From positions 1 to 64,000 of IMG/VR virus record IMGVR_UViG_3300030503_000566: DNA of 64,000 bases; one strand, written 5' to 3'. The DNA comes from a virus. Of this stretch, positions 33,317-58,397 are shown in pieces. The number at the start of each line of letters is the position of its first letter. Position 1 is the first letter of the stretch. Position numbers and translations under genes: made by a program. Under the pieces are notes generated by a model that saw only the letters and a program-made list of their open reading frames with translations, searched no databases and was not told the DNA's origin.

Positions 33317-33324
33317 AACTGATT

Positions 33325-33368
33325 GATTTATAGTTGATTTATAGTTGATTTATAGTTGATTAATAATT
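33325..33368 (-). repeat. 11-bp tandem repeat, four copies
   Basis: On the plus strand: GATTTATAGTT three times (33325-33357), then a degraded copy GATTAATAATT (33358-33368). The period of 11 bp is about one helical turn, and the array begins 8 nt before the start of gene 32867-33316. It could be an operator array; a chance slippage repeat is the alternative. Confidence 0.8.
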
Positions 33369-41980: not shown

Positions 41981-42178
41981 TTACACACTCCCACTTCTAC
42001 TCCAACTCCCACTCCAACCCCAACTCCCACTCCCACTCCCACTTCTACTCCAACTCCCACTTCTACTCCCACTTCTACTCCCACTTCTACTTCTACTCCA
42101 ACTCCCACTCCCACTCCCACTCCCACTCCCACTCCCACTTCTACTCCTGTATAATTTATTCTGATGTGAGGTAATCAT
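41981..42178 (-). CDS. Ser-Arg/Ser-Gly repeat protein, 65 aa
   Basis: 65 residues, of which about 50 are an (R/G)S repeat (SRSGSGSGSGSGSGSWSRS). It is encoded by a hexanucleotide tandem array (CCCACT/TCTACT/CCAACT on the plus strand). The ATGA overlap with 42175 argues that it is translated. The repeat could be unstable, giving strain-to-strain length changes. Alternative: non-coding repeat array. Confidence 0.55.
   Translation of the reverse strand: MITSHQNKLYRSRSGSGSGSGSGSGSWSRSRSGSRSGSRSGSWSRSGSGSGSWGWSGSWSRSGSV
41989..42147 (+). repeat. Hexanucleotide tandem repeat array
   Basis: About 26 six-base units of CCCACT with TCTACT and CCAACT variants, in phase with the frame of the leftward gene 41981-42178. 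The plus strand reads almost without A or G runs (pyrimidine-rich), so strong strand asymmetry is expected. Confidence 0.85.
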
Positions 42179-43431: not shown

Positions 43432-43453
43432 TAGTTTAAATTTAAGAATTAAG

Positions 43454-43527
43454 TAGGCTCATCAAGACTTGAACTTGAAACCCCCAAGGTATAAGCTTGG
43501 TGCTCTAACCAATTGAGCTATAAGCCC
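43454..43527 (-). tRNA. tRNA-Ile (anticodon UAU)
   Basis: A full cloverleaf on the minus strand: acceptor GGGCTTA/TGAGCCT (two wobbles), D-stem GCTC/GAGC with GG in the loop, anticodon stem CCAAG/CTTGG with loop CTTATAC (anticodon TAT) and T-stem TCAAG/CTTGA with loop TTCAAGT. The discriminator is A; CCA is not encoded. It reads AUA, a codon the phage uses often but many hosts read inefficiently. Confidence 0.9.
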
Positions 43528-43530
43528 ATA

Positions 43531-43773
43531 AAAATACAACCTACAATTAGCTCGGTTGTCTTATGGCTTATTACTGAGCATGTCCCTCCTCAGTTTATCT
43601 GGCTAATCAGATATTTGCAGCTACCTATATATTGCTGTTTTGCCATAGGCCCAAACCCCTATGATCCTGAACTTTCGCCCTTACAGCAGCTTTTTTCCTT
43701 GTACTTCGGTATACAGGCATATTAAAAATCAAGGCTAGATCTTATTGGAACCCTGCAAATAGTACTCCAATGA
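43531..43773. ncRNA. Candidate structured non-coding RNA next to tRNA-Ile
   Basis: No gene fits here, yet hairpins follow each other: ACAACC/GGTTGT (43536-43559), ACTGAG/CTCAGT (43573-43594), TATCTG/CAGATA (43596-43613), TGCTGT/ACAGCA (43633-43688) enclosing CATAGG/CCTATG, a C(TTCG)G-capped stem (43697-43717) and ATTGGA/TCCAAT (43744-43771). ATTTGCAG (43613-43620) also matches CTGCAAAT (43753-43760), a possible long-range or loop contact. The TTCG cap and a T-run at 43691-43696 favour the plus strand; the local genes point the other way. Family unknown. Confidence 0.55.
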
Positions 43774-43775
43774 GT

Positions 43776-43874
43776 TTATTTATGAAGAAACAACATTACA
43801 ATCATGAGCTTACTATGATGAGGTCTTGCCTCAATAAACTTCATTGCTATAGCATCTAAGTCTATCTTATCCAT
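43776..43874 (-). CDS. Micropeptide, 32 aa
   Basis: 32 residues, N-terminal acidic helix (MDKIDLDAIAMKFIEA) and a hydrophobic end. It lies just upstream (in the leftward unit) of the structured region. Function unknown. Confidence 0.5.
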   Translation of the reverse strand: MDKIDLDAIAMKFIEARPHHSKLMIVMLFLHK

Positions 43875-44395: not shown

Positions 44396-44800
44396 TTATG
44401 CAAACTGTAATTCCTCAATAGCTGGTAATGAGGATATTAATTCTTCCGCTGTAATAGGGGGATCGCTAATCTCAACCGATAATCTTCTTTGATAGAAAGA
44501 CACCAAGCTTCTAATATCCATCAATGCAGCTAATACTCTTTGTTTAGGAGTTTCTTGGTTATAGGAATTAGATAACCCATCATTTATACTAGTAACCTCT
44601 GATTCAAGGTATGTCCTTATTATTCTTTGGAGTGCAACTGCCTCTTTAGTAACTTCTAAAAGACCAGTACGGCTGGATCCACTCCCACAATGCCCCAATG
44701 CACAGAATGCTGTTCTCTCTGTATTGTTATAGTTACCCTCGTACCAATTTTCCTCAGGTATTGCCTGAAACTTTGCGATAAAATAATCGACTGTGTACAT
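44396..44800 (-). CDS. Paralogue of 46658-46972, 134 aa
   Basis: 134 residues from the ATG at 44800 (MYTVDYFIAKFQAIPEENW). Shared with the gene at 46658: AFCALGHCG, an EA-AL segment, ND-L-N-SY and ETPKQRVLAALMDI. The CxxxGHCG Cys/His spacing may bind metal. A longer start to 44842 includes a hydrophobic leader that overlaps the next gene. Function unknown. Confidence 0.7.
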   Translation of the reverse strand: MYTVDYFIAKFQAIPEENWYEGNYNNTERTAFCALGHCGSGSSRTGLLEVTKEAVALQRIIRTYLESEVTSINDGLSNSYNQETPKQRVLAALMDIRSLVSFYQRRLSVEISDPPITAEELISSLPAIEELQFA

Positions 44801-44811
44801 AATAAATGTTT

Positions 44812-44979
44812 TTAATGTGATAAATAATATAAACATGACCATAGGAGTATCGCAATAAAGAAGGTTATCACATTAAGATTGTTTTTTTTAACCCCTCCTT
44901 CGAGAGAATCTTCGATAAAGCTAATAAGATATAGCCATGTAAAAACTAGAGCAAATGCAAAAACGAATGTAGGTAACAT
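44812..44979 (-). CDS. Membrane protein, 55 aa
   Basis: 55 residues from the ATG at 44979, which lies after the stop of the gene upstream (44991). Two transmembrane segments (VFAFALVFTWLYLISF and VITFFIAILLWSCLYYL). Function unknown. Confidence 0.6.
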   Translation of the reverse strand: MLPTFVFAFALVFTWLYLISFIEDSLEGGVKKNNLNVITFFIAILLWSCLYYLSH

Positions 44980-46657: not shown

Positions 46658-46972
46658 CTACAATTTGTTTAGTTTGCCTTGCTTTATATCATTAAGGTAG
46701 GCCAATATCCTTAGTTTAGGAGTATCCTGTGTGTACAGTGGACTTAGATTATCATTTACGACATCTATCCTGGGGAAATAATTCACTGTTAAACTGTATA
46801 GAGCAGAAGCTTCTACTGAATCATCTATTTCATTCTTAGCTCCACATTGCCCATAAGCACAATACCTAACTGAAGATCCCTGATCATCCCTACAGATAAA
46901 CTGGTACATACACCACTTATCATCAGGTATATCTTCAAACTTCTTAATATAGTGGTCGATATCGTATTTCAT
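46658..46972 (-). CDS. Paralogue of 44396-44800, 104 aa
   Basis: 104 residues from the ATG at 46972 (MKYDIDHYIKKFEDIPDDKW). Shared with the sister gene: YCAYGQCG, an EA-AL stretch, ND-L-PLY and DTPKLRILAYLNDI. A longer frame to 47023 is not needed. Function unknown. Confidence 0.7.
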   Translation of the reverse strand: MKYDIDHYIKKFEDIPDDKWCMYQFICRDDQGSSVRYCAYGQCGAKNEIDDSVEASALYSLTVNYFPRIDVVNDNLSPLYTQDTPKLRILAYLNDIKQGKLNKL

Positions 46973-46994
46973 AATACATTGATTTTTAACTGGT

Positions 46995-47183
46995 TTATAA
47001 TATTTTAAAATCAATCTCAGCACTTGTAATATAAGAGAAGAGTTTATAATAACCCTCTTCAGTCATACTGTAGGTATAAGCGTTTGAGGTTGCACCCTCC
47101 CATTTAACATAATATTGGTAAATATCATTACCAAATCTTCTATCAATAGGATCTCTTGAGCGAGCTACATATATCTTCTTCAT
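46995..47183 (-). CDS. Small protein, 62 aa
   Basis: 62 residues with a Tyr-rich centre (DIYQYYVKWEGATSNAYTYS). The AACTCTAAAT element lies 8 nt upstream. Function unknown. Confidence 0.6.
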   Translation of the reverse strand: MKKIYVARSRDPIDRRFGNDIYQYYVKWEGATSNAYTYSMTEEGYYKLFSYITSAEIDFKIL

Positions 47184-54038: not shown

Positions 54039-54125
54039 ATGATAAGTGTATTAGAAGGAGTATTGATTATATTTGTATTTTGTTACATATGTTACAAGGT
54101 CATGAAATGGGTAATCAACGGGTAG
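54039..54125 (+). CDS. Membrane micropeptide, 28 aa
   Basis: 28 residues with a transmembrane helix (VLEGVLIIFVFCYICYKVM). Starts 3 nt after the tRNA-Met. Function unknown. Confidence 0.5.
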   Translation: MISVLEGVLIIFVFCYICYKVMKWVING

Positions 54126-54217
54126 TTCGGTAATATATACGAACTGTCTGTTATTCCGTACAAAATACCGAACTTTGTTTGTTATATCAGACATTAAAAA
54201 GATTTGGCTATTCCGTA
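54125..54217. promoter_or_regulatory. Cluster of TTCSGTA-type repeats
   Basis: GTTCGGTA (54125-54132), CGAAC (54140-54144), ATTCCGTA (54153-54160), TACCGAAC (54166-54173) and ATTCCGTA (54210-54217) form inverted and direct copies around a promoter. The last copy lies inside the promoter spacer, as an operator would. Confidence 0.6.
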
Positions 54218-54341: not shown

Positions 54342-54375
54342 GATATTAATCTAATTAGTCCGTCCCATTGCAGGT

Positions 54376-54410
54376 AACTCTCTAGCCCCTAGGCTAGGGA
54401 GTTTTTTGTT
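54376..54410 (+). terminator. Strong intrinsic terminator
   Basis: AACTCTCTAGCC/GGCTAGGGAGTT with a 4-nt loop, followed by TTTTTTG. It ends the micropeptide transcript. Confidence 0.9.
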
Positions 54411-56036: not shown

Positions 56037-56361
56037 AAAGAATAACTATATAACTGCTGAATTAGACTTTGCAGAAGAGCAACTTGCTACTTGGAAGCAA
56101 TATATATTAGACCGGCCAGTAGATCAATTAAAAGATAGAATTGAGTGGAAGCAAACTAAGGGTGGGGGGATGATGCCTATGGTTATCGCCTCTATAGAGG
56201 CACAAGGTAAATTCCTACAAGAGACTCTCAAGAATTATCTCTCATTATTAGAGGTAGTAAATAAGTTAAGAGAACAAGAGGAGGCTAAAGTTGAAGCTAG
56301 AGGAGGCAAGGAGATAAAGGGTGGAATGATGGGTAGACTTGTTAAAGGAGAAGATGAATGA
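56026..56361 (+). CDS. Candidate small terminase subunit
   Basis: 111 residues from the ATG at 56026; a longer frame to 55951 is in the previous gene's span. It is helical (LDFAEEQLATWKQYILDRPV, then a coiled coil LLEVVNKLREQEEAKVEARG). It overlaps TerL by 4 nt (ATGA), which is where TerS usually sits. No DNA-binding motif is obvious, so this is inference from position. Confidence 0.45.
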   Translation: MATKKNNYITAELDFAEEQLATWKQYILDRPVDQLKDRIEWKQTKGGGMMPMVIASIEAQGKFLQETLKNYLSLLEVVNKLREQEEAKVEARGGKEIKGGMMGRLVKGEDE

Positions 56362-58397
56362 GCATAATTACATCACCTGAGTTTTTTAGAAATGTCAAGA
56401 GACCTCCAACTCCAGATTCTGCGGAGTATGAGCATTTCTTTGAATATGAATTGGATAAAATCAAGTATGGTGTAACCATTAATGGAGTCTTTATAGATCC
56501 TTGGCTCTATTGGCATCTTAATCATTGGAATATTTATATTAATGATAAAGATGAGAGAGATGACTCTACCAAAAGAGTGTTTACTCACCCTACTCCCAGA
56601 GATAATGAGTGGGCCTTGGCTGAGGCAAGAGCAGAAGCTATTAAGCAGAAAAAAGGATTAGTAGCTATTGGTATTCGTAGGTTTGGTAAATCTGAGATAG
56701 AGGCTTCTATTATAGCAAGATCAGCAACTATTTACCAAGGTTCTGAAAATGTTGTTTCCTCCGGTAATGATAAAGATTTAGGGCTTATAACTGATAAACT
56801 TGAGAGAGGCCTGACCTCCGTACACCCTTATTTTCAATGGCAAAGGGTAGAGGATAATTGGAAGAGGCAGGTTACACTAGGGATAAAAAAGAAAAGTGGT
56901 GAGAAATTACCATTCTCTTATATATTAATAAGGAACTATGATGATGGTATCAATAGTGAAGCAGCCGCAGGTATCACAGCCAAAGAGTTTATTATTGACG
57001 AAATTGGAAAATTCCTCTTTCTTCGAGCATTTGAGGCAGCAATGCCAGCTTTTACCTCAGAATTCGGGTGGATATGTAGTCCTCTCCTTGTAGGGACAGG
57101 AGGGGCTTTCGAGAAAGGTAGTGATGCAGAGAAGGTTTTCTTAGATCCTGAGGGACATAATATGCTAGGTTTCCAATGGAAGGAGGAACCTAAGAAAATT
57201 GGTTTCTTTGTTGGGCATAAAAATAGACTTGAGGCCAAAGTGGATACTACACTGGGGGATTGGATAACTACAGAGAAGGGAATTATAATCCCCGCAGGTT
57301 CAGAGCTTTACACAATCCCCTTTAAGGCATCTGATGCTGAGAAAGCTGAGAAAATAACTGATGAGAAAAGAGCACAGAAGAAAAAGGCTAACGATCCTCA
57401 GGCTTACCTTAAAGAAGTAATGTACTTCCCCAAGAATCCACAGGAATGCTTCTTAACTCTAGGTAATTCGTTCTATAATAGTGAGATGGCTAGAGCACAA
57501 AAGGCCAGATTACTCTCTATGGGTAGGAATGGTACCCCCGTAGTCCTCTTTGAGGATGGGCAGGAGATAAAACATCAGTTCTCAGATAAGGGTCCAGTAA
57601 TGAATTGGCCAGCTAAGGCCATGGATGATAAAGATGCTCCTATTATCATATATGAGTTTCCAATGGAGAATCCACCATTTGGATTATATGTAGCTGGTGT
57701 TGACCCTTATAAACAAGATCAGGCTAAGTACTCAGAATCCCTTGGGTCTGTTTACATTTACAAAAGAATACATGATATTCTCGGAGAGGGATATAGAGAT
57801 GTGTTTGTAGCCTCCTACGCAGCAAGACCTAAAAATATTGATACGTGGAATGAACAAAGTCGTCTCTTAATAAAGTTCTATAACGCTAGAACATTATGTG
57901 AGAATGAGGATATGGGATTTATTAACTATATGATTTATAAGGGAGATGGGCATTTTATGGAGGATCAACCTGAGTGGTTAAGGGAGATAGTCCCCAATAC
58001 ACAGGTGAATCGTAAGAAGGGGATACATCGTTCCTCTTCCCAAATAAGAACTTATCTACACTCAGTTCTTAAACATTATTTCGAAGAGAAGATAGGTGTT
58101 CGTCGTAATGATAAAGATGAAGTTATAGGTGATGTGTTAGGAATAACACGAGTACCTGATGTTATGTTATGTGAGGAAATTGCCCGTTTTAATGAAGAGG
58201 ATAACTTTGATAGAGAAGTAGCAGCTTCTCTAGCAGTAGCATTAGCAAGACATCTTGATCCTCAATTTGTTGTCTCATCTATAGAGAAAGATATTAGAAT
58301 AAGAGCTTATTTTGATAGAGCTAAATCACAACAGAATCAAAGCTTCATAGATAGAAAGACCCCAAGCTTCTTAAATAGGAAGACTAAATTTGTATAA
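56358..58397 (+). CDS. terL: Large terminase subunit (TerL)
   Basis: 679 residues. Walker A-like GIRRFGKS (105-112), Walker B FIIDEIGKF (D214-E215), then a nuclease half starting GLYVAGVDPYKQD with the first catalytic-type Asp near 452. It cuts concatemers and pumps DNA into the prohead. Length fits crAss-like and related terminases. Confidence 0.92.
   Translation: MSIITSPEFFRNVKRPPTPDSAEYEHFFEYELDKIKYGVTINGVFIDPWLYWHLNHWNIYINDKDERDDSTKRVFTHPTPRDNEWALAEARAEAIKQKKGLVAIGIRRFGKSEIEASIIARSATIYQGSENVVSSGNDKDLGLITDKLERGLTSVHPYFQWQRVEDNWKRQVTLGIKKKSGEKLPFSYILIRNYDDGINSEAAAGITAKEFIIDEIGKFLFLRAFEAAMPAFTSEFGWICSPLLVGTGGAFEKGSDAEKVFLDPEGHNMLGFQWKEEPKKIGFFVGHKNRLEAKVDTTLGDWITTEKGIIIPAGSELYTIPFKASDAEKAEKITDEKRAQKKKANDPQAYLKEVMYFPKNPQECFLTLGNSFYNSEMARAQKARLLSMGRNGTPVVLFEDGQEIKHQFSDKGPVMNWPAKAMDDKDAPIIIYEFPMENPPFGLYVAGVDPYKQDQAKYSESLGSVYIYKRIHDILGEGYRDVFVASYAARPKNIDTWNEQSRLLIKFYNARTLCENEDMGFINYMIYKGDGHFMEDQPEWLREIVPNTQVNRKKGIHRSSSQIRTYLHSVLKHYFEEKIGVRRNDKDEVIGDVLGITRVPDVMLCEEIARFNEEDNFDREVAASLAVALARHLDPQFVVSSIEKDIRIRAYFDRAKSQQNQSFIDRKTPSFLNRKTKFV

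Follow-up and report, generated by a model that had tools for sequence, protein, structure and literature searches.

A candidate structured non-coding RNA beside the tRNA-Ile gene of an uncultured crAss-like phage

The window analyzed here, a stretch of 64,000 nt, derives from an 85.6-kb IMG/VR virus record in which the terminase, the portal and the major head protein have matches among phage families. The terminase matches of this uncultured crAss-like phage include members of that abundant phage group; the nearest relatives found have ~50% of the terminase in common with it. By terminase (56358-58397), the closest named phage is Leptolyngbya phage Lbo-JY46 (45%), for which a cyanobacterial host is recorded, an unusual one for a crAss-like relative. 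Between 0.4 and 50 kb, the non-overlapping ORFs of at least 90 aa lie on the minus strand, and within this region a non-coding stretch of ~250 nt separates a 32-aa ORF (43776-43874, minus) from a tRNA-Ile(UAU) gene, downstream of which a tyrosine-phosphatase-like protein is encoded. The candidate studied here occupies that stretch and has a GC content of 0.39; its longest minus-strand ORF (within 43531-43773) spans 35 aa, and a 70-aa plus-strand ORF (43513-43725) overlaps it and runs antisense over the tRNA. Two small neighboring minus-strand proteins (44396-44842 and 46658-47023) resemble paralogues when judged by eye: each starts with a YxxDYxIxKFxxIPxxxW-like motif and has QxTPKxRxLAxLxDI in its C-terminal part.

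A sequence-only reading of this locus had described seven stems spread over ~240 nt. Every arm that it listed is present where it was placed, and the paired arms are exact reverse complements; the TTCG-capped stem corresponds to HP6. The features are as follows.

43453-43527, minus: tRNA-Ile(UAU), directly downstream of the candidate on the minus strand
43531-43773 (243 nt), minus preferred: candidate structured non-coding RNA, proposed on hairpin, kissing-loop and pseudoknot statistics and the lack of a long minus-strand ORF
43520-43571, minus: extended HP1, AUAAGCC-AUAAG-ACAACC / GGUUGU-AUUUUUAU-G-GGCUUAU
43536-43559: HP1, ACAACC (43536) with GGTTGT (43554), 12-nt loop TACAATTAGCTC
43573-43594: HP2, ACTGAG (43573) with CTCAGT (43589), 10-nt loop
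43596-43613: HP3, TATCTG (43596) with CAGATA (43608), 6-nt loop GCTAAT
43612-43620 and 43753-43761: putative pseudoknot arms, TATTTGCAG and CTGCAAATA, 9 bp
43633-43688: P4, TGCTGT (43633) with ACAGCA (43683), enclosing P5
43644-43663: P5, CATAGG (43644) with CCTATG (43658), inside P4
43680-43669, minus only: GNRA hairpin GGGC(GAAA)GUUC within P4, with two G-U pairs
43697-43717: HP6, with a cUUCGg cap and a G-U pair on plus
43741-43774: HP7, ATTGGA (43744) with TCCAAT (43766), 9 bp, one of them U-G on plus, 16-nt loop; followed on plus by UUUAUUUAU

Beyond these local stems, two longer-range contacts can be drawn. The sequence-only reading had noted an 8-base match between ATTTGCAG (43613) and CTGCAAAT (43753); the match is present and its length comes to 9 bp, and because CTGCAAATA sits in the loop of HP7, the pairing would constitute a pseudoknot. 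In addition, ATTAGC in the HP1 loop (43546-43551) is complementary to GCTAAT (43602-43607), which makes up the entire HP3 loop, such that the two hairpins could engage in a 6-nt kissing loop. Neither the kissing loop nor the placement of the pseudoknot in the HP7 loop had been recognized earlier, and by virtue of these two loop complementarities the case for a structured RNA is somewhat stronger than that reading knew.

The third relationship involves the tRNA itself. It had been suggested that TAAGCC (43521) could, on the minus strand, pair across the leader and the tRNA acceptor with GGCTTA (43565), and the two are indeed exact reverse complements. On the minus strand, this complementarity lies in register with HP1 (which is followed there by the U-run AUUUUUAU) and prolongs it into an imperfect hairpin of ~18 bp with two bulges, the extended HP1, which incorporates GGCUUAU from the 5′ acceptor strand of tRNA-Ile; by folding energy it ranks within the best 0.9% of the 64-nt windows on the minus strand. 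Among ~30 tRNAs (from this phage, its relatives and Lbo-JY46), tRNA-Ile is the only one whose acceptor strand is matched in this way over 7 nt upstream; taken alone, the anti-acceptor match has P ~0.03 for this tRNA-Ile, and no anti-acceptor leader precedes the IMG/VR tRNA-Ile genes that share the same acceptor start. The computed energies of the tRNA alone (-22.4 kcal/mol) and of the competing hairpin (-20.6 kcal/mol) are about equal, and a switch between extended HP1 and folded tRNA-Ile is therefore possible on these folding models.

We compared the candidate with known RNA families and systems. GOLLD and ROOL are ornate RNAs of phages and prophages, often found near tRNA islands, that employ kissing loops and pseudoknots; lengths above 800 nt are common in GOLLD, and residue numbers in ROOL run beyond 460 (PMC12286853). 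Our candidate is likewise phage-borne, tRNA-adjacent and non-protein-coding, with a putative pseudoknot and a possible kissing loop, whereas its ~243 nt fall short of many hundred and no homologue of it was found. The sequence-only reading could not match it to either class, and Rfam was negative at the gathering score and up to E 10; membership was rejected by the Rfam and length tests, proximity to a phage tRNA gene being the one point of agreement, and the resemblance is one of position and style, not of family. The best non-tRNA Rfam match in the stretch, the Bacteroides sRNA BTnc005 (RF04178, minus), aligns HP1 and its U-run against a terminator end and stands at chance level, scoring 16.3 bits where the gathering cut-off is 174.8 (E 0.14). 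Within 43531-43773 there is no tRNA or tmRNA match by ARAGORN or by the tRNA model, even at E 10, and no tandem repeat of the kind that would indicate a type III toxin-antitoxin RNA. Phage T4 makes two stable small RNAs, C and D, which are encoded beside its tRNA genes and for which no function is known; as small RNAs of a phage tRNA transcript, they may resemble the candidate, a likeness that is no more than a lead.

Searches for relatives of the candidate were negative throughout. We found none by blastn in 50,697 phage records, a separate blastn in phage records yielded listed matches covering the tRNA only, and among 43 crAss-like records collected via the terminase the inspected matches were short and mostly coding sequence. 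Three DNA patterns run against IMG/VR, and one against genomes, together with back-translated words, gave no relative among the matches listed, and extension of the pattern matches by BLAST and nhmmer retrieved short matches around the pattern only. A single-sequence covariance model of 43531-43622 gave weak matches only (E at least 0.4) in the 43 relatives and further loci. As regards the surroundings, two neighboring proteins are without relatives in IMG/VR, as is the 70-aa plus-strand ORF, a search for the phosphatase in phages returned nothing, and a suspected conservation of the 32-aa ORF (43776-43874) was dropped on inspection of the blastn matches in relatives. That the neighboring proteins also have no IMG/VR relatives suggests that this phage region is poorly sampled, and the absence of homologues then says little; the collections searched may moreover omit records very near the window.

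Several other elements were also observed. On the plus strand, between tRNA-Met and the late genes, 54110-54205 is a further tRNA-adjacent structured-RNA candidate, in which a long hairpin (CAACGGGTAGTTCG ... CGAACTGTCTGTT) is accompanied by another stem and the folding is slightly better than that of shuffles (z -1.7, equaled in 9/200), and 54370-54410 (plus), downstream of tRNA-Arg and tRNA-Met, contains a strong terminator-like hairpin, CTCTCTAGCCCCTAGGCTAGGGAG, then a T-run. Two repeat arrays lie elsewhere: at 41986-42147 a 6-bp unit (CACTCC on the plus strand) recurs in 27 imperfect copies, with two minus frames open that would be GV- or SG-rich, and there are 3.9 near-perfect copies of the 11-bp unit TTGATTTATAG at 33323-33365, in a 329-nt gap between ORFs. 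Related phages have in common a G-rich run, GGGTGGGTGGG (L050 ~1725, L051 ~880, L059 ~2170), which lies ahead of an ORF in non-coding, AT-rich sequence and may form a G-quadruplex.

How readily such features could arise without selection bears on the interpretation, and a chance origin of the stem combination is a serious rival. The stretch might be an ordinary untranslated spacer that encodes no functional RNA, its inverted repeats being accidental or weakly selected (for example, as a terminator-like hairpin before the tRNA); we consider this somewhat unlikely. It accords with the folding energy of the 243 nt, whose nested minimum is ordinary on either strand when pseudoknots are disallowed (z -0.13 plus, -0.68 minus), with the lack of any relative found, and with a loose count of 6-bp inverted repeats, where the seven present against 3.2 expected make a weak excess (42/1000 shuffles) that 152/1046 equally long genome windows (15%) also reach. 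Dinucleotide shuffling of the sequence, 40,000 times, was harder to reconcile with a spacer: at least five simple hairpins arose in 11 shuffles (the shuffle mean being near 1), a kissing pair of at least 6 bp in 136 and a loop pseudoknot of at least 8 bp in 586, while the three together arose in none, these statistics having been chosen post hoc, after the features had been seen. In real phage DNA (35,854 overlapping windows over 1.4 Mb of this and related phages) the triple combination recurs at a handful of loci, all with a GC of 0.20-0.31 and thus more AT-rich than the candidate; no other window of similar GC has it. Sliding folds localize the outlying part to 43480-43640, comprising HP1-HP3 and the tRNA end (z ~-4 minus, -3 to -3.5 plus), and 43440-43632 on the minus strand folds better than 199/200 shuffles, with the tRNA included in that stretch. 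The earlier proposal of a structured RNA thus stands as plausible, with a kissing loop and a pseudoknot added to it and with an ordinary whole-stretch energy and no homologue set against it; that 43531-43773 encodes, on one strand or the other, an RNA whose structure is under selection we judge slightly more probable than not.

The direction of such an RNA had been left in doubt, justifiably, given that features favor both strands. A structured RNA read from the plus strand, antisense to the genes, starting at ~43531 (or inside the tRNA antisense) and reaching HP7, is in our estimation unlikely. The cUUCGg tetraloop and three G-U pairs (in HP6, HP7 and P4) are exclusive to plus; the tetraloop and a G-U pair had been cited for that strand, and both exist; the minus strand has G-U pairs of its own in the GNRA hairpin. 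A score for the packing of crossing helices over 43513-43776 also favors plus (z -3.4, 0/200 shuffles, against -1.6 on minus); 5/318 control windows were equally extreme, all of them minus and none among the 159 plus controls. The same ordinary nested folding weighs against a plus-strand RNA, as does the failure to find a promoter-like motif upstream of it; promoter evidence was found on neither strand, nor was terminator evidence found for a minus-strand RNA, an early-motif search located no motif in the candidate stretch, and the best early motif proved not to be enriched. Gene direction (as noted before, the surrounding ORFs are on minus), the U-run after HP1, the GNRA hairpin and the lower energy of most hairpins favor the minus strand, and we prefer it because a plus-strand RNA would sit alone within a long minus-strand region. 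Finally, perfect inverted repeats suit DNA as well as RNA of either strand, and the locus could instead be a DNA-level element or a remnant, such as protein-binding or origin-like inverted repeats or a decayed tRNA or gene copy; this appears decidedly improbable. A weak collinear similarity of tRNA-Ile to ~43787-43727 (minus) would fit a decayed copy, its score being matched by 4% of shuffles, but the tRNA model has no match there at E 10 and no related protein or DNA was found, and the GC-skew turn (~48-52 kb) lies several kb from the candidate, contrary to an origin-like role.

A selected RNA structure on the minus strand, acting with tRNA-Ile as an orphan leader RNA of ~240 nt, is accordingly the reading that we put forward tentatively, as possible rather than probable. 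The structured leader would share a minus-strand transcript with tRNA-Ile(UAU), and the kissing loop and pseudoknot would fold it into a compact, stable body with HP1 at its end. Extended HP1, with its leader complementarity in register, could then compete with the acceptor stem, such that the precursor would alternate between a state in which the 5′ end of the tRNA is hidden and one in which the folded tRNA can be cleaved by RNase P, a cleavage that may also free the leader as a small RNA. We hold this competition step to be about half as likely as the minus-strand structured RNA itself. That the candidate represents a previously undescribed class of small phage RNAs, in which a kissing loop/pseudoknot body carries a terminal hairpin that sequesters the tRNA 5′ strand and switches its maturation during infection, is a highly speculative extension.

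Little work seems to exist on the non-coding RNAs of crAss-like phages, and our literature search found no study of one. If real, the RNA at this locus would be a small and tractable addition to the puzzling phage RNAs that are linked to tRNAs and have no known role, and a leader that is complementary to the acceptor strand offers a directly testable idea of how such an RNA may act.
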